A DNA stretch of 37,929 nucleotides from the NCBI GenBank assembly GCA_902579395.1, contig CACHGK010000009.1, forward strand, positions 1 through 37,929, read 5' to 3'. Of this stretch, positions 28,837-37,646 are shown in pieces. Numbering within the stretch: position 1 is the first letter of the stretch; every line of letters starts with the position of its first letter. The notes below the pieces were generated by a model. That model saw nothing but the letters and a program-made list of their open reading frames with translations, did not search any database and was not told the origin of the DNA. The position numbers were made by a program, and so were the translations under genes. This DNA comes from an uncultured Alphaproteobacteria bacterium (GTDB lineage: Bacteria; Pseudomonadota; Alphaproteobacteria; Methylaequorales; Methylaequoraceae).

Positions 28837-29628
28837 TTACATTCCTGGCATTCTCATTAAACTTGCACCCACAGAATCTAACTCTTCCGACATCTGAATA
28901 AATTTAACGTGCATTTCAAATTTTCTTTGCTGATCAATAGTATTAACCATTTCTTCGACAGCGTTAACATTACTTTTTTCGAGAAAGCCAACAACTATCT
29001 TAGCTTGTTGGTTTGGCTGAATTTCTACGATTTCTTGATTACCATCTTCATTTTGTATAGGCTCAATTCTTATATGACCATCCAATGATTTCTTTAATTT
29101 ATCAGTTTCTAAGGGGTCATATGTTGCAATTACTCCAATATTTTCCGGTAAAGCATCCGGTTCAGCGCCTATTGGTTTAATAAACACTTCACCTTGAGGA
29201 GAAATATTTATTTCTCTGAAGGCTGGTAAAACAATTGGCTGAAGACCAGCATCAAGAACTTTATTTCCTGCACCATCAAGTAACTCTCCGTTCTCACTTG
29301 TTTGAAGATCCCCTCTTCTTGACAAAGAGGGCTGTCCTCCGTCTCGTGGTTGTATAACAAAATAACCAGTACCTTCTATTGCTAAGTCTAGTGGATTTTG
29401 TGTTGCTTCCATTGTACCTTGTTGAATTGAAAATCCTCCTATATTTCTTGCAGATATAATTCTTGGTTCTACACCATTTTGTCTATTTAGATAGATAGAG
29501 CCAAAGTCAGATACTACATCTTGTCTAAATCCTGGTGTATTCAAGTTAGCTAGATTATGAGATGTTGCAACTTGATTTTCCATGAGCATTTTCAAACTAT
29601 TCAAAGCTGTTTGTGCCATTCTATCCAT
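28837..29628 (-). CDS. flgF: Flagellar proximal rod protein FlgF
   Basis: 263 residues. FlgF is a periplasmic rod component exported by the flagellar secretion system. The N-terminal rod motif SHNLANLNTPGF, IEGTGYFVIQPRDG near residue 85 and the C-terminal heptad helix ending MSEELDSVGASLMRMPGM are typical. The MDRMAQTAL start favours FlgF over FlgG, which begins with a Leu-Trp motif. GAGGAG precedes the start. It is the last gene of the flgB-C-D-E-F unit; flgG is not in the window. Confidence 0.93.
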   Translation of the reverse strand: MDRMAQTALNSLKMLMENQVATSHNLANLNTPGFRQDVVSDFGSIYLNRQNGVEPRIISARNIGGFSIQQGTMEATQNPLDLAIEGTGYFVIQPRDGGQPSLSRRGDLQTSENGELLDGAGNKVLDAGLQPIVLPAFREINISPQGEVFIKPIGAEPDALPENIGVIATYDPLETDKLKKSLDGHIRIEPIQNEDGNQEIVEIQPNQQAKIVVGFLEKSNVNAVEEMVNTIDQQRKFEMHVKFIQMSEELDSVGASLMRMPGM

Positions 29629-29658
29629 ATTAAAATCTCCTCGGAATTTCTAGTTTAG

Positions 29659-32600
29659 TTACATTCTAATATTAACAATTGCCTGAGTTGTTGCAGCAGT
29701 AGTTTCAATAGACTTCGCATTTGCTTGGAAGTTTCTTTGCGCAGTTATTAAGTTAACCAACTCTTCTGTAATATCCACGTTGGATCTTTCCAATGAACCA
29801 GAAAGGACTGTTCCAAAACCCTCAGCACCAGCTTCACCAACTGTCGCCGTACCCGAAACTGCTGTTTCTACATATGTTGCGTTACCAATTTGTTTTAAAC
29901 CGTTTTGGTTATTAAAGTTTGCAAGAACGATTTTTCCAAGTGGATTGTTCTGACCATTTGTATAGTTAGCTCTTACAGTACCAGAGGCGTCAACTTCTAA
30001 ACCGTCTAAACGTCCAGACGTAAAACCATCCTGGTTTACCGTTGACACGAAAAATGGTTGTGCTAACTGGGTAGACTTTGTAAAGTCAATATCAAGATCA
30101 ATACTAAATCCTGCTTCTTGCTTTTCATAATGTACACCTTGTTTAGGACTTACAATTCTGCCTGATTTGTCAAAAGTTAATTCACCTTCGTCGATGTATA
30201 AAGGGAAATACCCGTCAACTAAGTTAGCAGGTGGAGTCGTTACCTTGTTTCCTTGTGCATCAACAAATAAAGCTAATCCTTCACTATTTGTTGCTTGTTT
30301 TAAGTTATAAATTTGAGGAACAGAACCAACACCAAGATCAACATTGTCTAGTCCAAATTTAGTTGCTCCTCTAACTTTAATTGTTGAGTCCCTACCTGTA
30401 GTACCATTTGTAAATGTAAACCTGTTTGTAGATGAATCGTATTTAACTGTTATACCACCACCAACAGTACCAGAGGTGTCCTCGATTTGATTTATTCTTT
30501 CTTGAAGTGCTTCAGCTAAAGTAGTTCCAACATAAAAACCTTGAGGTATTTCGATGATACCTGCAACACCATTAACCGAAACGTTAAATATATTTTCATT
30601 ATTCTGATTTGATAATCTAAAAACTTGTGTAAGGTCTTCGGTAGCAGTTGCTCCTACTGCTTGTGCAGGCTGAGCCGCCAAACCTTTAGCTTCAGTTTTT
30701 AGAGCATTTGTTTTTGTTTTCCCAATTCCAAGAAGGTTATTATCACCTGAGAAGAAATCAGTTGTATCCGTAATTGATCCATCGGTAGTAGATAATGCAT
30801 ATCTACCAACAACAATATCAGAGGCTGTTTGATCTGTTGTTACTCCTAGTGCACCATTTGCAGCAATCGTTTCACCTGTTGTGCCACTACTAAATTCAAA
30901 AGCTTTTAATTCACTATTGTAACCAACTTTGATTCCAAAACGTTTGTCATTTAACTGAATCTCAGCACCGTCAGCAACGAAAGTTGCTGCAGAGAATTTT
31001 TCACCACCTCTAATGAGGGTAGTTGTAGTATCATCTGCAGTAGGTATACCTAAATTATTTGTAGACGTTGCAGTTGATGAACCAAAAATTTTAAAACTAT
31101 TAAAGTTACTGTTCGTTCCCGTTCCAATTAAGTTTCTATCAACTTCAAATTGTAATCTTTGGTTAAGAACATCATAAGTAACTTCAATTGGTGGGTTTTT
31201 TTCGTCTACCCACTGCATTTGAGCCGGCACCTTATCTGTTGCTGAACCATCACCATTTAAATGATCATCTCGTGTTGCAGCACTTGCATTACTTCCAATT
31301 CCAATTAAATCGAATGTATCTAGTGTTGTGCCAGACGTAGTTTTATCATCTTTTAATGTAAATTGCTCAGTAAAAGCATCAAGTATGTTTTTGCCTGAAT
31401 TACCAGCAACCATTTGTCTATTTGTATATGAATGTTTATTAGCAGTACCAATCTCTCTTAGAACAAGTTTTTTATTACTAAAATTAACATCTGATCCTTT
31501 ATATACTGCTGTTGGATCCGATCCTTCAAAGAAGGCCTCAGTTGATGTTGATATGGTGCTGTAAATATTGGCATCATTACCTGTAGCGAAATCAATGCTA
31601 AAATCTGAGTCTGGTAGATTCATTCCAGCAGTACTACATTCAATATAGTATTGAGCATTTCCACCTACTGTTTCTGAACCAACACTTGTTACTGTAAATT
31701 CTCTCCCATTAATAAATTCACCATTAGTATTATCAGTAGTATTTGCATAGAATTGACCTATTAATCTTACTTTTGAGTTTGCGGCAATATTATTAGATGC
31801 AGGATTAGTTGTACCAAAATGAAATCTGATAGTATTTTCAGATTGATCATAAAAAACTGCTTTACCAGGATTAGCCGTTGCTCCAGTTGGATTAATAGCC
31901 ATTTGTGTCATTTTATCATAAACATGAACTTGTGGGCTTTTCCCAAAATATGAATAAGTCAGATACTGCTTAGCCGCACTAAAACTGTTAGCTGCTGTTG
32001 CGTGAGTGGAGGAATTTCTTTCAAATTCAAAAGCTTGACTTTGTTCAAGCATTGTTGTCATTTCTTTACCTGCTGCTCTGTAAAATAGTTGGTTTGAAAT
32101 ACCTAAAGCAGATGCCTTTGCGGTATCAACCACACCACCAGCAGTTGCTCCCGTTTGTGCAGAAACAGCATATGTGTTTAATGAATCATTTAATCTAGCT
32201 TGAGTATGCGCTAAGAATTGATCTCGAGTAAAGTCTGGTGATGCACCAGTTAAAACAATACCTTCTTTTGTAGAAACATAAGAATCGGCTAATAAATCAA
32301 CACTTATAGGTGTTGTTAAGCCGGTTGATGTTCCATCAGCATTTAATTTTTGAAGATCAATTGTTAGAGTATCGTCAACGTTTTGAACGATTTGAATTTT
32401 TTTGTCATCACCGTAAGCTGCATTAACTGATCTTTGTATTTCCTTTGCTAAATCAGCTGCGTTATATGACCCAGGTCTTATATCAATATTAACTGGTTGG
32501 TCACTCCCATCCACATTAATAGTCATAAAGTTAGTTCCCCAATAAATTTGAGAACTTGTGTCACCACTTTCCCTTGTTGAATTAAACTGAAGTGGGTCTG

Positions 32601-33564
32601 TAACAATAGTCACTGTCTTATCTCCTTCTTCTCCGAAGTCAAAGGCACTTGATTCACCAGTTATTTTTGCTGGAGTTGAGTCAACTAATGTTTTTAAATC
32701 ATCAAGTTTATACAAAGCTGAACCTTTTCCTTCAAGAAAGTAGTTATCGTCAGGAACTTTAGTAGTTTGTTGACCAAATCTATCAATAAAAATTGGTTGT
32801 TTGGTATCATTCACAGCTTTAACTAAGTCTGGATCAATAACCGTGTCATTAATTACTAATCTTGTATCATATTTGTTGGTTGGGTCAGATGCTGATGCAG
32901 CTTGAGTTCTAATAAAGAAAATAGTTGCAATTGTTGGATTACCTAAATCATCAAAGATTGTTATTGAGGTTGAATTATTATAAGTAGTCGGATCATTGGG
33001 ATTAAATACATAACCACTAGCAAATTGAGCATTGTCTGTTATCACATCACTTGTGGCTGAAACGTTAACACCTAACTCAATTGCTGTTGTTGCTTTTGGT
33101 GTCCCTGAGGTAACTGGCAATTGAAGTGGTATTGCACTTGTCAAATCTTTTGCAGTAACTGAACCATCGGCATTAACTGGAAAAGTTAAAAGAAACTGCC
33201 CAGACGAATCTGTAACATATCTATCATTGTTCACATTAAATGAACCATTACGTGTATAAACTGTTTGTCCAGATGTTAAAGATGGTTTTAAAGAGAAAAA
33301 ACCTTGCCCCGATATCGCCATGTCAAGAACGTTTAGAGAGGAGGTAATGTTACCTTGAGTAAACTGCTGTTTTACACTTTTAAGAATTGTACCAGAACCG
33401 ATTGATGAAGATGCATTTTGTAATGGTGATGTTGCAAAAATATCACCAAATTCTGCTCGTGACCTTTTAAAACCAGTCGTGTTAACGTTTGCGATATTAT
33501 TCGATGTAGCCGAAATATCTGACTGTGCTCCATTAAGTCCGGTAAGTGCTGTGTAAAATGACAT
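29659..33564 (-). CDS. flgE: Giant flagellar hook protein FlgE
   Basis: 1301 residues, about three times E. coli FlgE (402). The D0 ends are intact: MSFYTALTGLNGAQSDIS and TSNNIANVNTTGFKRSRAEF at the N-terminus, and LERSNVDITEELVNLITAQR with NFQANAKSIET at the C-terminus. Standard D1 segments ISGQGFFSL and TRNGSFNVN (about 85-112) and GLEVDASGTVRANYTNGQ (about 1188-1205) flank the expansion. The extra roughly 900 residues form surface domains rich in Thr, Asn, Asp and Ser. Two similar modules occur at about 346-406 and 990-1066, each with a short strand, Gly-x-Tyr, an Ala/Leu-rich helix and strands, resembling flagellin IN-type modules. AGAGGAG precedes the ATG. The frame is uninterrupted, so it is not a fusion artefact. 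Confidence 0.95.
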   Translation of the reverse strand: MSFYTALTGLNGAQSDISATSNNIANVNTTGFKRSRAEFGDIFATSPLQNASSSIGSGTILKSVKQQFTQGNITSSLNVLDMAISGQGFFSLKPSLTSGQTVYTRNGSFNVNNDRYVTDSSGQFLLTFPVNADGSVTAKDLTSAIPLQLPVTSGTPKATTAIELGVNVSATSDVITDNAQFASGYVFNPNDPTTYNNSTSITIFDDLGNPTIATIFFIRTQAASASDPTNKYDTRLVINDTVIDPDLVKAVNDTKQPIFIDRFGQQTTKVPDDNYFLEGKGSALYKLDDLKTLVDSTPAKITGESSAFDFGEEGDKTVTIVTDPLQFNSTRESGDTSSQIYWGTNFMTINVDGSDQPVNIDIRPGSYNAADLAKEIQRSVNAAYGDDKKIQIVQNVDDTLTIDLQKLNADGTSTGLTTPISVDLLADSYVSTKEGIVLTGASPDFTRDQFLAHTQARLNDSLNTYAVSAQTGATAGGVVDTAKASALGISNQLFYRAAGKEMTTMLEQSQAFEFERNSSTHATAANSFSAAKQYLTYSYFGKSPQVHVYDKMTQMAINPTGATANPGKAVFYDQSENTIRFHFGTTNPASNNIAANSKVRLIGQFYANTTDNTNGEFINGREFTVTSVGSETVGGNAQYYIECSTAGMNLPDSDFSIDFATGNDANIYSTISTSTEAFFEGSDPTAVYKGSDVNFSNKKLVLREIGTANKHSYTNRQMVAGNSGKNILDAFTEQFTLKDDKTTSGTTLDTFDLIGIGSNASAATRDDHLNGDGSATDKVPAQMQWVDEKNPPIEVTYDVLNQRLQFEVDRNLIGTGTNSNFNSFKIFGSSTATSTNNLGIPTADDTTTTLIRGGEKFSAATFVADGAEIQLNDKRFGIKVGYNSELKAFEFSSGTTGETIAANGALGVTTDQTASDIVVGRYALSTTDGSITDTTDFFSGDNNLLGIGKTKTNALKTEAKGLAAQPAQAVGATATEDLTQVFRLSNQNNENIFNVSVNGVAGIIEIPQGFYVGTTLAEALQERINQIEDTSGTVGGGITVKYDSSTNRFTFTNGTTGRDSTIKVRGATKFGLDNVDLGVGSVPQIYNLKQATNSEGLALFVDAQGNKVTTPPANLVDGYFPLYIDEGELTFDKSGRIVSPKQGVHYEKQEAGFSIDLDIDFTKSTQLAQPFFVSTVNQDGFTSGRLDGLEVDASGTVRANYTNGQNNPLGKIVLANFNNQNGLKQIGNATYVETAVSGTATVGEAGAEGFGTVLSGSLERSNVDITEELVNLITAQRNFQANAKSIETTAATTQAIVNIRM

Positions 33565-33584
33565 GTTTTTTCTCCTCTATTTAA

Positions 33585-34289
33585 TTAATTATTTGATTTA
33601 AACTTTATCGCCTCAGATGCAGAGATTTCACCATAATCCTCTGTCTCTAAGATAACATCCTCACTATTTTTCGGTGCTGATGCTGCAATAACTTTGTTAT
33701 AAACTGCTGTGTTAAGTCCATCTGAGCCCTCAGCATTTCCTGAATAGGCTTGGATTGATAATTTTGTTTTATTTTTCTTAATTTCATCGGGTATATCAGT
33801 CCAACTAAACCCTACTAATCCTTTTTCTTGAGAACCTAAATTCATTGAATGAATAATCTCACCACTAGAATTTGAAAATGTTAAACCTACATCATTTGAA
33901 TATGCCGGTAAGTCAACTACACCATGAATTTCTCCATTATCATCAGGACTTGCTACCTGACCTGGAACCAATACTGAATGACCAAGGAATTGCGCTGCAG
34001 TTGCCACTCTGTTTGGTTCTAATTTTGAACCAAGGTTCGTCAAATTATTATTTATCTCTGTAATTCCTGTAACTGTAGAAAATTGCGCCATTTGGGCAAT
34101 AAAATCTCCGTTATCCATCGGTGCAAAAGGATCCTGATTTTGAAGTTGTGTTGTCATTAATTTTAAAAAGTCCTCTTGACCTAACGAGGTCTTTTTACCA
34201 GCTTTGGCAGCTTCATCCTGAGTCTTTACTCCAAGTTTATTTAAAATATTGTTTAAAGATTGTTCCGAAGTTTTTGAAATATCCGTCAT
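33585..34289 (-). CDS. flgD: Flagellar hook cap protein FlgD
   Basis: 234 residues. FlgD caps the growing hook and guides FlgE assembly. The conserved N-terminal block LGQEDFLKLMTTQLQNQDPF with MDNGDFIAQMAQFSTVTGI covers about 32-75, and a FlgD-Ig/Tudor-like region follows (VGLTFSNSSGEIIHS onwards). The Gln-rich region is retained. It is 20 bases upstream of flgE in the same unit. Confidence 0.95.
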   Translation of the reverse strand: MTDISKTSEQSLNNILNKLGVKTQDEAAKAGKKTSLGQEDFLKLMTTQLQNQDPFAPMDNGDFIAQMAQFSTVTGITEINNNLTNLGSKLEPNRVATAAQFLGHSVLVPGQVASPDDNGEIHGVVDLPAYSNDVGLTFSNSSGEIIHSMNLGSQEKGLVGFSWTDIPDEIKKNKTKLSIQAYSGNAEGSDGLNTAVYNKVIAASAPKNSEDVILETEDYGEISASEAIKFKSNN

Positions 34290-34303
34290 ACTTTCTCCTT
34301 AAT

Positions 34304-34717
34304 TTACTTTCCTATACTTGCAGTTTTGAGCATTAGTGCTCTAACAGTTGATATTACTTCTACATTATTTTGATATTGTCGAGACGCCTCTAGCATATCA
34401 ACATATTCCTCTTCGATATTTACTGGTGCTCTATAAATAAATCCGTTTTCATCAGCAAGTGGGTGACCAGGTTTAAATTCTTTAATTGGATCAATATCCA
34501 TTTTTTGAACTGTTACTGCATCAACAGTAGAAATTCCCCTTTTTCTTATTAAGTCAAAATACTTAGTTTCGAAAACAGGTTTTACTGGTTTGTAGGCGTC
34601 CTGTGGACTTGAAGCTATATTGTCGGCATTGGCAAGGTTACTTGCGGTAGCATTAAGTCTTACTAATTGAGCTCCCATCGCTCTTTGTGCAATATGATAA
34701 ATATTTTTAATATCCAT
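34304..34717 (-). CDS. flgC: Flagellar basal-body rod protein FlgC
   Basis: 137 residues of proximal rod protein. The N-terminal NATASNLANADNIASSPQDAYKPV motif and the C-terminal helix with VDMLEASRQYQNNVEVISTVRALMLKTASIGK are diagnostic for FlgC. It starts at 34717, overlapping the flgB stop by one base. Confidence 0.95.
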   Translation of the reverse strand: MDIKNIYHIAQRAMGAQLVRLNATASNLANADNIASSPQDAYKPVKPVFETKYFDLIRKRGISTVDAVTVQKMDIDPIKEFKPGHPLADENGFIYRAPVNIEEEYVDMLEASRQYQNNVEVISTVRALMLKTASIGK

Positions 34718-35106
34718 TATTCACCTCTTATAGCGCTTTTAAGACCCTTGATTTTCGAATTTATAAAATCCAGAGTAGTTTGATATCTTATTGAATTTTC
34801 TGCAAACTCCATTTGTTCAACAGCGAGTTCCACTGTGTTGCCATCAACAGATGGGTTAATTGACTGTCTATATTGTACTTTGCCAGGCAAACTATTTGAT
34901 GTTAATGCAATGTGTTGAGAATTTGAAGTTTTCAAGGGACCAACGTTTAATGATCTAGCTAATTCCACTTCAAATTTAACATCACGAGCTTTATAATTAG
35001 GCGTTGCAGCGTTTGCAATATTTGATGCAAGAATTTCTTGTTTTTTATTTCTTACTCTTAGTGCATTGCTCAATACATTTAATTGTTGTTTAATATTATC
35101 TACCAT
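34717..35106 (-). CDS. flgB: Flagellar basal-body rod protein FlgB
   Basis: 129 residues, first gene of the flgBCDEF unit. The rod motif ILASNIANAATPNYKARDVKFE lies at about 25-46 and the terminal helix contains EQMEFAENSIRYQTTLDFIN. The ATG has no strong Shine-Dalgarno sequence, but a sigma-54-type promoter lies about 35 bases upstream. fliE, which often follows flgC, is absent from the unit. Confidence 0.94.
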   Translation of the reverse strand: MVDNIKQQLNVLSNALRVRNKKQEILASNIANAATPNYKARDVKFEVELARSLNVGPLKTSNSQHIALTSNSLPGKVQYRQSINPSVDGNTVELAVEQMEFAENSIRYQTTLDFINSKIKGLKSAIRGE

Positions 35107-35127
35107 TTCATTAATTTTTAATAGTTT

Positions 35128-35143
35128 TGGTTTAGAATTTGCA
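35128..35143 (+). promoter_or_regulatory. Sigma-54-type promoter for the Lys/Glu-rich gene
   Basis: Read on the plus strand: TGGTTTAGAATTTGCA. GG at 35129-35130 and GC at 35141-35142 have the exact sigma-54 spacing and a full TTGCA -12 half, but the -24 half is weaker than on the other strand. The predicted start near 35154 gives a leader of about 21 bases that contains AAAGG before the ATG at 35175. It shares the central GC with the flgB promoter, so the two cannot be occupied together. Confidence 0.55.
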
Positions 35144-35155
35144 AATTAAATGCCA
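35140..35155 (-). promoter_or_regulatory. Sigma-54 (RpoN) -24/-12 promoter for flgBCDEF
   Basis: Read on the minus strand: TGGCATTTAATTTGCA. The consensus TGGCAC-N5-TTGCA is matched at all fixed positions but one (T for the last C), with the GG and GC exactly 12 bases apart. The predicted start near 35129 gives a 5' leader of about 23 bases to the flgB ATG. RpoN with an enhancer-binding activator commonly drives rod/hook genes in Alphaproteobacteria such as Caulobacter. Confidence 0.72.
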
Positions 35156-35174
35156 AAAGAAAGGTAATAAGAAA

Positions 35175-36137
35175 ATGGATGAAAAAAATACTATGAATTC
35201 TGACTTAGATCCCGAAGTAATAAAGGTTAGAGACAAAATTATAAGTAAAATCGGAGATAAACCTCTTGATGAAGTTAATTCAATTATAAAAAAACTATTA
35301 AATGAAAGTATGGATGATGTAACAAGGTTAGGTGCGCTTGCAGCTAGGTTAAAAATTATAAGATCTAAGATTGAATTACTTTACGAAAGTAAGGTCGATA
35401 TTAAACCAAAAAAAGAAGATAAGAAACCAAACGTAGATGTTAAAGAAGAGAAAAAACCAGAGCCTAAAAAGGAAGACAATTGGGTTCGAGTTAAAATGCT
35501 TGAAGCAGCCGAGGTTAATGGCAAACAAATTGCTGAAGGTGTTATTCTTGATGTTAAGGAAGAAGACAGTAAAAAGCTAGTTGACTCAAAAAAAGCAGAA
35601 ATAGTTGAGGAGGAAACAGAAGGTGCAACTCCAATTCAAAAAAGTGAAAATTTGGAAAAAGTTGAGAAGGAAGTCAAAAAAGAAGCTATAGAAACAGAAG
35701 AAGCTAACAAAAAAGATGAAGATCAGAAAAACAAAGAGGATAATAAAGTTTTAAAAAGTGAAGTAAGTATTGAAGAGGTTCAGGACGATAAAAAATCTGA
35801 AGAATCCAAGGCCAAAAATTTACTTGAAAAACATGAAGATGCTGTTTCCGATGACAATGAAGAAAAAGAAAAAGTTGTTAACGAGGAAAAAGCATCAGAA
35901 GCATCTGATATTGTAAAGGAAAAAAAAGTTGAAGCAGAGAATAAAAACTCCCCTCAAACTTCAGAACCTTTGAATAAAGAGGATACTGAAAATAAGGATG
36001 ATACAGAAAAAAAAGAAGAAAATATTAATAAACAAACTAAAAATGAAGATGTTGAAACTAAATTAGAGACATCTGAAAAAAAAGAAGAAAATAAAGAAAA
36101 TCATAGACCCGATGGTATTGAAGATAAAAACGCTTAG
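35175..36137 (+). CDS. Lys/Glu-rich protein of unknown function at the flagellar locus
   Basis: 320 residues; not a family I recognise. Residues 1-72 look helical (PLDEVNSIIKKLLNESMDDV, ARLKIIRSKIELLYESK). Residues 101-146 form a small predicted beta module (NWVRVKMLEAAEVNGKQIAE, then GVILDVKEED and AEIVEE) resembling short phage-type domains in which V-x-V, a glycine turn and 'A-x-x-L-V' recur. Residues 147-320 are almost entirely Lys, Glu, Asp, Asn and Ser, probably disordered. No signal peptide or membrane segment is seen. The start at 35175 is chosen over the TTG at 35139 because of AAAGG and because 35139 would overlap the promoter. It is divergent from flgB. Confidence 0.8.
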   Translation: MDEKNTMNSDLDPEVIKVRDKIISKIGDKPLDEVNSIIKKLLNESMDDVTRLGALAARLKIIRSKIELLYESKVDIKPKKEDKKPNVDVKEEKKPEPKKEDNWVRVKMLEAAEVNGKQIAEGVILDVKEEDSKKLVDSKKAEIVEEETEGATPIQKSENLEKVEKEVKKEAIETEEANKKDEDQKNKEDNKVLKSEVSIEEVQDDKKSEESKAKNLLEKHEDAVSDDNEEKEKVVNEEKASEASDIVKEKKVEAENKNSPQTSEPLNKEDTENKDDTEKKEENINKQTKNEDVETKLETSEKKEENKENHRPDGIEDKNA

Positions 36138-36165: not shown

Positions 36166-36579
36166 ATGATCAGATTTTTGAATATAATTAATTTGATTAA
36201 ACTTTTAATTAGAAATTTAAAAATTTCATTTAATTCAAAAAAAAATTTTTATTTAGTTATGATTTTAATCTTTTTCTTATCATCTTGTGATGATCTGTTC
36301 TTAAGATTTAAGTATGAGACTCTTAACTGTAAAAAAAATAGTTTTAATTTAGATAAAATATCGATAAAGAATGAAAAAGTTGATTCGCTAGCTGATGTCC
36401 AATTTGGTGATATTTACCATTCGATAAAAATTGTTGAGACCAATGATGATTTTACTATTCTTAAAAATAATATTATGGATATAGAAATTAAAATTTTCAA
36501 AAGAACTGAAAGAGTTGATGTTAGACTTAAAAACACTATAAAAAGACTATCATGTGAAAGACAAACTTTTAAAATGTGA
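36166..36579 (+). CDS. Small putative lipoprotein
   Basis: 137 residues as read from 36166; unknown family. A hydrophobic segment followed by the lipobox LSSC (Cys41) predicts a lipoprotein. A second in-frame ATG at 36259 gives a signal of nine residues, MILIFFLSS, which is very short, while the upstream start gives a long Lys/Arg-containing n-region; the true start is uncertain. The mature part is a beta-strand-like 96 residues with two further Cys (55 and 130 in the long numbering). It lies 28 bases after the Lys/Glu-rich gene and may share its promoter. Convergent with the DUF6115 gene, one base apart. Confidence 0.65.
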   Translation: MIRFLNIINLIKLLIRNLKISFNSKKNFYLVMILIFFLSSCDDLFLRFKYETLNCKKNSFNLDKISIKNEKVDSLADVQFGDIYHSIKIVETNDDFTILKNNIMDIEIKIFKRTERVDVRLKNTIKRLSCERQTFKM

Positions 36580-37334: not shown

Positions 37335-37646
37335 TTACTTCATTTCTTTGTAAGCGTCAAATAAAGCTGCTGTTACCTTATCTAGATCAAGCGGATAATT
37401 TCCAGTTCTTATTGCTTCTTTGATTCGTGTTGTGGTAACTCTGTCGATAGGAGGTTCTTTACTCATACTTTTTATTTTCTCCTTAGTTATGAACTGCGAG
37501 ACCTTTCCATCGTGAGTATCAACTCTTTTATTAGTTGGGTTACTTGCTTTCTGCACCTCAGCCTTAACTTTCGTATCGTCTTGGATTACTTTTTTACTAC
37601 TGTTAAGACTTGTGTTTACAGTTTTATTTTTGATTTGGTCAATCAT
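37335..37646 (-). CDS. flgM: Anti-sigma-28 factor FlgM
   Basis: 103 residues: a disordered, Lys/Ser/Thr-rich N-terminal half and the conserved C-terminal sigma-28-binding region EPPIDRVTTTRIKEAIRTGN followed by YPLDLDKVTAALFDAYKEM (about 63-102). FlgM holds FliA inactive until the hook is complete and it is exported. AAGGAA lies five bases before the ATG. It follows flgA by 33 bases, the classical flgA-flgM order. Confidence 0.9.
   Translation of the reverse strand: MIDQIKNKTVNTSLNSSKKVIQDDTKVKAEVQKASNPTNKRVDTHDGKVSQFITKEKIKSMSKEPPIDRVTTTRIKEAIRTGNYPLDLDKVTAALFDAYKEMK

Follow-up and report, generated by a model that had tools for sequence, protein, structure and literature searches.

The flgB intergenic region

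In this study, we analysed a window of 37,929 nucleotides (the whole stretch of DNA under examination), which is contig 9 of a 1.30-Mb alphaproteobacterial genome that is about 80% complete. The window carries the hook/rod operon flgB-flgC-flgD-flgE-flgF on the minus strand and, divergent from it, a Lys/Glu-rich gene on the plus strand; flgB and the Lys/Glu-rich gene are separated by 68 bp, with a dyad at the centre of the gap. The features of the locus are listed below.

28837-34717, minus strand: rest of the flgB operon, from open reading frames (ORFs)
28837-29628, minus strand: flgF-like ORF, assigned by Pfam
29659-33564, minus strand: flgE, assigned by position and N-terminal sequence
33585-34289, minus strand: flgD, assigned by Pfam
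34304-34717, minus strand: flgC, assigned by Pfam
34717-35106, minus strand: flgB, first gene of the operon (Pfam Flg_bb_rod)
35125-35158, no strand: putative symmetric double sigma-54 element GG-N10-GC-N10-CC, 34 bases, from sequence and conservation
35125-35130 and 35153-35158: outer arms TTTTGG and CCAAAA
35128-35143, plus strand: putative sigma-54 promoter TGGTTTAGAATTTGCA toward the Lys/Glu-rich gene, predicted start about 35154
35136-35147: inner palindrome AATTTGCAAATT, from sequence
35140-35155, minus strand: putative sigma-54 promoter TGGCATTTAATTTGCA toward flgBCDEF, an exact TGGCAYN5TTGC; -24 GG at 35154-35153, -12 GC at 35142-35141, predicted start about 35129
35141-35142: shared putative -12 GC at the dyad axis, invariant across all loci examined
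35160-35165, plus strand: AAAGGT, ribosome-binding site of the Lys/Glu-rich gene, directly outside the dyad; GAAAGG is kept in the window's own family, f1
35175-36137, plus strand: Lys/Glu-rich gene, 320 aa, with a conserved N-terminal three-helix segment and a conserved small beta segment

The double element had been reported by an initial annotation of this DNA, and its bases and coordinates were borne out, with GG at 35129-35130, GC at 35141-35142 and CC at 35153-35154 and a spacing of exactly 10 on either side. Toward flgB, the minus strand reads TGGCAT-N5-TTGC with GG-N10-GC, an essentially perfect sigma-54 promoter sequence whose GG and GC are invariant among relatives. Toward the Lys/Glu-rich gene, the plus strand reads TGGTTT-N5-TTGC, which has the same GG-N10-GC spacing, TGG at -24 and TTGC at -12, but departs from the full -24 consensus TGGCAC in that the CA after TGG is missing (TGGTNY in most genomes). 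Many natural sigma-54 promoters deviate at the bases following the -24 TGG, and TGGTNY would therefore mark the plus side as a weak promoter and not as a non-member.

Within the window, the double site TGGN8TTGCAAN8CCA occurs once against 0.01 matches expected from shuffles, and TGGCAYN5TTGC once against 0.04 expected. The looser single pattern TGGN8TTGC is common, with 12 matches, so the plus half is unconvincing alone and it is conservation that carries it. Counting 24 bases from the -24 G, transcription is predicted to start at 35154 on the plus strand and 35129 on the minus strand, 25 bp apart, each predicted start coinciding with the -25 base of the opposite -24 box. Recomputed from these positions, the leaders would be 21 nt long to the ATG at 35175 (plus) and 23 nt long to the flgB ATG at 35106 (minus), in agreement with the 21-23 bases first estimated.

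The two conserved segments of the divergent protein are joined by Lys/Glu-rich low complexity, which continues after them; the C-terminal of the two has the pattern W-x-R-V-x-M-L-E...VNG...I-x-DV. A search of Pfam and NCBIfam with this protein returned no family match, and its AlphaFold model (about 85 pLDDT for the N-terminal helices, pTM 0.40 for the whole) was too weak for a fold search. The gene had been called an orphan, a label that has to be abandoned, as it represents a conserved family that lies head-to-head with flgB in marine Alphaproteobacteria. This linkage to flgB suggests that the protein may have a role in flagellar assembly. Downstream of it, a 137-aa gene (36166-36579) with a lipoprotein-like start and no family match may be co-transcribed with it. 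Elsewhere in the window, the FlgE-type hook protein (29659-33564) is unusually long at 1301 aa, and a FlgM-like anti-sigma-28 protein, below cut-off, at 37335-37646 adjoins a FlgA-like chaperone.

Conservation and loss of the mirrored half

Family f1 consists of pelagic marine Alphaproteobacteria, and a protein search located flgB in 26 of its members, the window's genome included. The dyad TTTGGCAYTYAATTTGCAAWTTYYAAACCAAA is present in 25/25 of those in which the upstream region is available, with zero indels inside it, while outside it the flgB leaders differ from genome to genome in both length and sequence. For other families, the divergent gene served as bait (alignment A1, 12 proteins, 4 of them from motif-selected loci), because selecting loci on the motif itself was to be avoided. 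This bait detected the gene in 10 of the 385 genomes searched across the class, in 76 of the 136 genomes from the order of genome G242 and in 6/28 from the order of G179.

At these protein-homology loci the mirrored GG stands at its exact spacing in f1 (25/25), f109 (33/33), f174 (2/2), f176 (7/7) and f18 (6/6). GG-N10-GC-N10-CC is thus present in 73/73 genomes of five families, 48 of them outside f1, and the GG/GC spacing that had been singled out for comparison with relatives is kept on both strands. The spacers drift: the mirrored genomes contain 36 different dyads and not one change of spacing. Over 57 distinct extended sites from these genomes, TGG and TTGC of the plus strand never change (2.0 bits), and the three bases after the plus GG vary along with the spacer (TGGTTT, TGGTGT, TGGTCT, TGGTAC, TGGCCC, TGGATC, TGGTGC). 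That this geometry is kept over five families points to a promoter type that is probably real and previously undescribed.

The same alignments bear on another account of the dyad, namely that only the flgB-facing sigma-54 promoter is real and the TTGG arm makes up one half of an operator, bound by a dimeric regulator that covers the promoter and is either a repressor or an enhancer-binding protein (EBP) acting as one. The element is indeed a dyad, a similar dyad recurs at motA, and Caulobacter FlbD is reported, according to the title of a reference in PMC3096577, to be a repressor as well as an activator at ftr elements. A dimeric regulator would, however, keep its own contact bases symmetric. 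Among the 36 distinct dyads, only GG and TTGC are symmetric throughout; the other positions come out at roughly the level that independent arms would give, apart from one, two bases outside TTGC, that is mildly more symmetric (0.81 against 0.59 expected). The fully symmetric bases are exactly those that sigma-54 reads, at its exact spacing, which argues against a dimeric operator. The initial annotation had held that conservation of the arms only would favour an operator; full symmetry proved to be confined to GG and TTGC. In addition, the other promoters of the regulon yielded no copy of the exact dyad, and the arm is gone in family f175, whose divergent gene is preceded by a box of another kind. 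We consider the operator quite unlikely.

The mirrored GG is absent from 34/34 f175 loci, where it stands at background frequency, and from the single f104 locus (1/1). In f175 and f104 together, conservation drops to 0.07 and 0.43 bits at the two G positions and to 0.83 at the first T of TTGC; the flgB half retains its TGGCA and TTGC. One would expect this of a plus half that is a sigma-54 promoter on which selection has been lifted in these families. Upstream of the divergent gene, a TGTCGT/TGCCGT box is found at 33/34 f175 loci as opposed to 1/73 mirrored loci, at a near-constant distance from the divergent ATG (27-29 nt in most, 9-10 nt in genus g291), which is most simply read as a switch of the f175 divergent gene to another promoter. 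The genomes of f175 are not independent and the loss is essentially one evolutionary event, so it amounts to one comparative datum and not 34. As f104 and f175 demonstrate, the locus can do without the plus half, which counts against a bidirectional promoter as the best explanation.

At loci L170-L199 and L248-L255 of f175, the TTGTCGTA/TTGCCGTA box is in many cases preceded by AACTTTA and a T run; the box is possibly another flagellar or cell-cycle promoter type. A link between the mirror and the distance to the divergent ATG (Fisher test) was withdrawn after g291, where the ATG lies 44-45 nt away without a mirror, a distance that overlaps the 21-48 nt of mirrored loci; the association of mirror loss with the f175 box stands. 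A GTDB scan also gave motif matches outside marine Alphaproteobacteria (Campylobacterota, HTCC2255 and others). These fall mostly within coding sequence, many of them in one conserved gene (glyA-like N-terminus), and therefore lend no support to the element. A match in a flagellin spacer of genome G408 was rejected as a further case, as it is not divergent.

Sigma-54 machinery and a model for the element

The genome contains an intact rpoN (C4:97717-99177, with three of three sigma-54 domains present) and four proteins that strongly match the EBP domain: NtrC, NtrX, which lacks GAFTGA, and a head-to-head pair from the flagellar cluster (G000:C4:118871-121280), encoded beside fliF-fliG genes. 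Both members of the pair have GAFTGA; the 354-aa protein has a Fis-type helix-turn-helix (HTH) and lacks a receiver domain, and the 385-aa protein lacks an HTH. The pair resembles the FleQ/FleT arrangement of Rhodobacter sphaeroides. Thus the check for rpoN and a flagellar EBP that the initial annotation had suggested turned up both, two flagellar EBPs being present, and together with the two-strand conservation of spacing this supports its proposal that face-to-face sigma-54 promoters may share the -12 GC. Exact TGGCAYN5TTGC sites precede flagellin, flgG, a flgE/F-like gene, FliB-like genes, glnB/K and others, and we therefore regard the sigma-54 flagellar regulon as real. None of the other regulon sites inspected has a mirrored CC. 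A reversed-pattern control for this site scan is probably biased by scarce CG and was excluded from significance. A search for a nearby enhancer (UAS), based on how well codons are conserved in the two flanking genes, flgB and its divergent neighbour, brought out no clear element. The FliB-like (lysine-methylase-type) genes, at G000:C2:141407 and C3:109193, each lie behind a sigma-54 site; at C3:109142/109193 there is a divergent sigma-54-like pair whose boxes are separate.

We propose, with a probability of roughly 80%, that the element is a bidirectional sigma-54 promoter with a shared -12, which would co-express the divergent gene with the hook/rod operon and be biased toward flgB. The one central GC would serve as -12 element for sigma-54 holoenzyme whichever way it binds, with the outer GG pairs acting as the two -24 elements. 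Since the sites overlap, two holoenzymes could not bind simultaneously; judging from this geometry, holoenzyme would bind in one orientation at a time and then wait as a closed complex until opened by a flagellar EBP, probably the FleQ-like/FleT-like pair near fliF-fliG. The asymmetry between TGGCAY on the flgB side and the weaker TGGTNY on the side of the divergent gene suggests biased co-expression: the consensus -24 would make flgB the stronger direction, and the weaker opposite -24 would let the Lys/Glu-rich gene be expressed in linkage with it but at a lower level, tied to the rod/hook stage.

Could the element instead be a regulated switch, in which different signals or activators pick the direction, so that a cell produces hook/rod proteins or the Lys/Glu-rich protein but not both? 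The overlap enforces exclusive occupancy, there are two different flagellar EBPs, only one of which has a DNA-binding domain, and sigma-70 bidirectional promoters compete when one direction is activated (PMC12825309). The same sigma factor would, however, serve both directions, nothing found separates their activators, and the conserved co-location with a flagellar operon fits co-expression. At sigma-70 bidirectional promoters the other direction is repressed only upon strong activation, and basal firing is not high enough for the directions to compete (PMC12825309), so a decision switch does not follow from exclusive occupancy. Of the mutually exclusive switch first proposed, exclusive occupancy is thus retained, by geometry only, and commitment to one gene or the other is unsupported; we attach little probability to the switch. 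We regard it as very unlikely that the Lys/Glu-rich gene is transcribed from an ordinary sigma-70 promoter and that the mirrored GG plays no part in a promoter: although TAGAAT (35133-35138) resembles a -10 box in this genome, most f1 relatives have TGGAAT in its place and it is the GG that is invariant, and we found neither a sigma-70-like pair in 35000-35300 nor a conserved sigma-70 alternative across 72 genomes.

Known bidirectional promoters and a second, looser case at motA

Bacterial bidirectional promoters have been described for sigma-70, where the -10 itself is nearly symmetric. Divergent sigma-54 promoters of a flagellar locus are known from flaN/flbG of Caulobacter; these reportedly lie apart, and what they have in common is a set of ftr enhancer elements and not a -12. 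Going by the title of Mullin and Newton (1993), as listed in PMC3096577, that locus is similar to ours in pairing an alphaproteobacterial hook-region operon with a divergent unit under sigma-54 and shared regulatory sequences. The two divergent units orp1/orp2 of Desulfovibrio vulgaris (PMC3897727) are likewise co-activated by sigma-54 and one EBP, but from separate promoters with IHF and EBP sites in between. Upstream of R. sphaeroides flgB2, divergent flagellar promoters also occupy a short gap, but they are CtrA-dependent, with two separate CtrA sites, and the partner gene is fliI (flgB2/fliI2; PMC6180460).

The closest likeness is to the shared -10 promoters of Warman, Grainger and colleagues (PMC12825309, PMC10268837), in which a pseudo-symmetric core is read on both strands, opposite starts lie at a fixed short distance, and one polymerase at a time gives rise to two mRNAs. 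Those promoters depend on sigma-70 and a shared -10, with typical start distances of 18, 10 or 23 bp, whereas the flgB element would be activator-dependent and use sigma-54, with a shared -12 GC and a predicted 25 bp. By sequence, the flgB element has one core on both strands, with the shared GC at the dyad axis and conserved together with both of its partners, and this core would be used from both strands; it is the sigma-54 -12 in place of the sigma-70 -10. The element would work like a Warman/Grainger bidirectional promoter, yet is not a member of that group as defined. Searches of open-access literature brought up sigma-70 bidirectional promoters that share a -10 and sigma-54 promoters that diverge but are separate, and no sigma-54 pair sharing a -12; this provisional absence agrees with the initial annotation, which knew of no described pair with such a shared element. 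If our reading is correct, the sigma-54 counterpart would extend the bidirectional-promoter idea to an activator-driven polymerase, and competition between directions would be set at loading, not melting, since sigma-54 polymerase waits as a stable closed complex. The deep conservation of the element and its one clear loss offer a ready natural comparison.

The same genome has a related dyad, TTTGGTATTAAAGTTGCAGAATCTGTACCAAA, in the gap that separates motA from a divergent Lcl_C-domain gene (G000:C4:100688-100719; L200 6689-6720). The motA-facing box is present in 22/22 genomes of the family and the mirrored GG in 16/22; in the 6/22 that have lost the mirror, the divergent Lcl_C-domain gene is retained wherever it could be checked. 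The motA dyad has the same layout under looser constraint and lends the bidirectional reading weaker support, and its loss of the mirror with the gene retained counts against that reading. A wider reading would make the flgB and motA elements members of a distinct class of shared-minus-12 sigma-54 promoters, used at least twice, in which the EBP pair sets the direction of loading and the element acts as a ratio controller or checkpoint between hook/rod and Lys/Glu-rich protein; we regard this as speculative and unlikely. Taken as coding sequence, the 3-mismatch dyad at G000:C4:100688 would read F-G-I-K-V-A, an assignment that we rejected, as mapping places the dyad in the intergenic region before motA.
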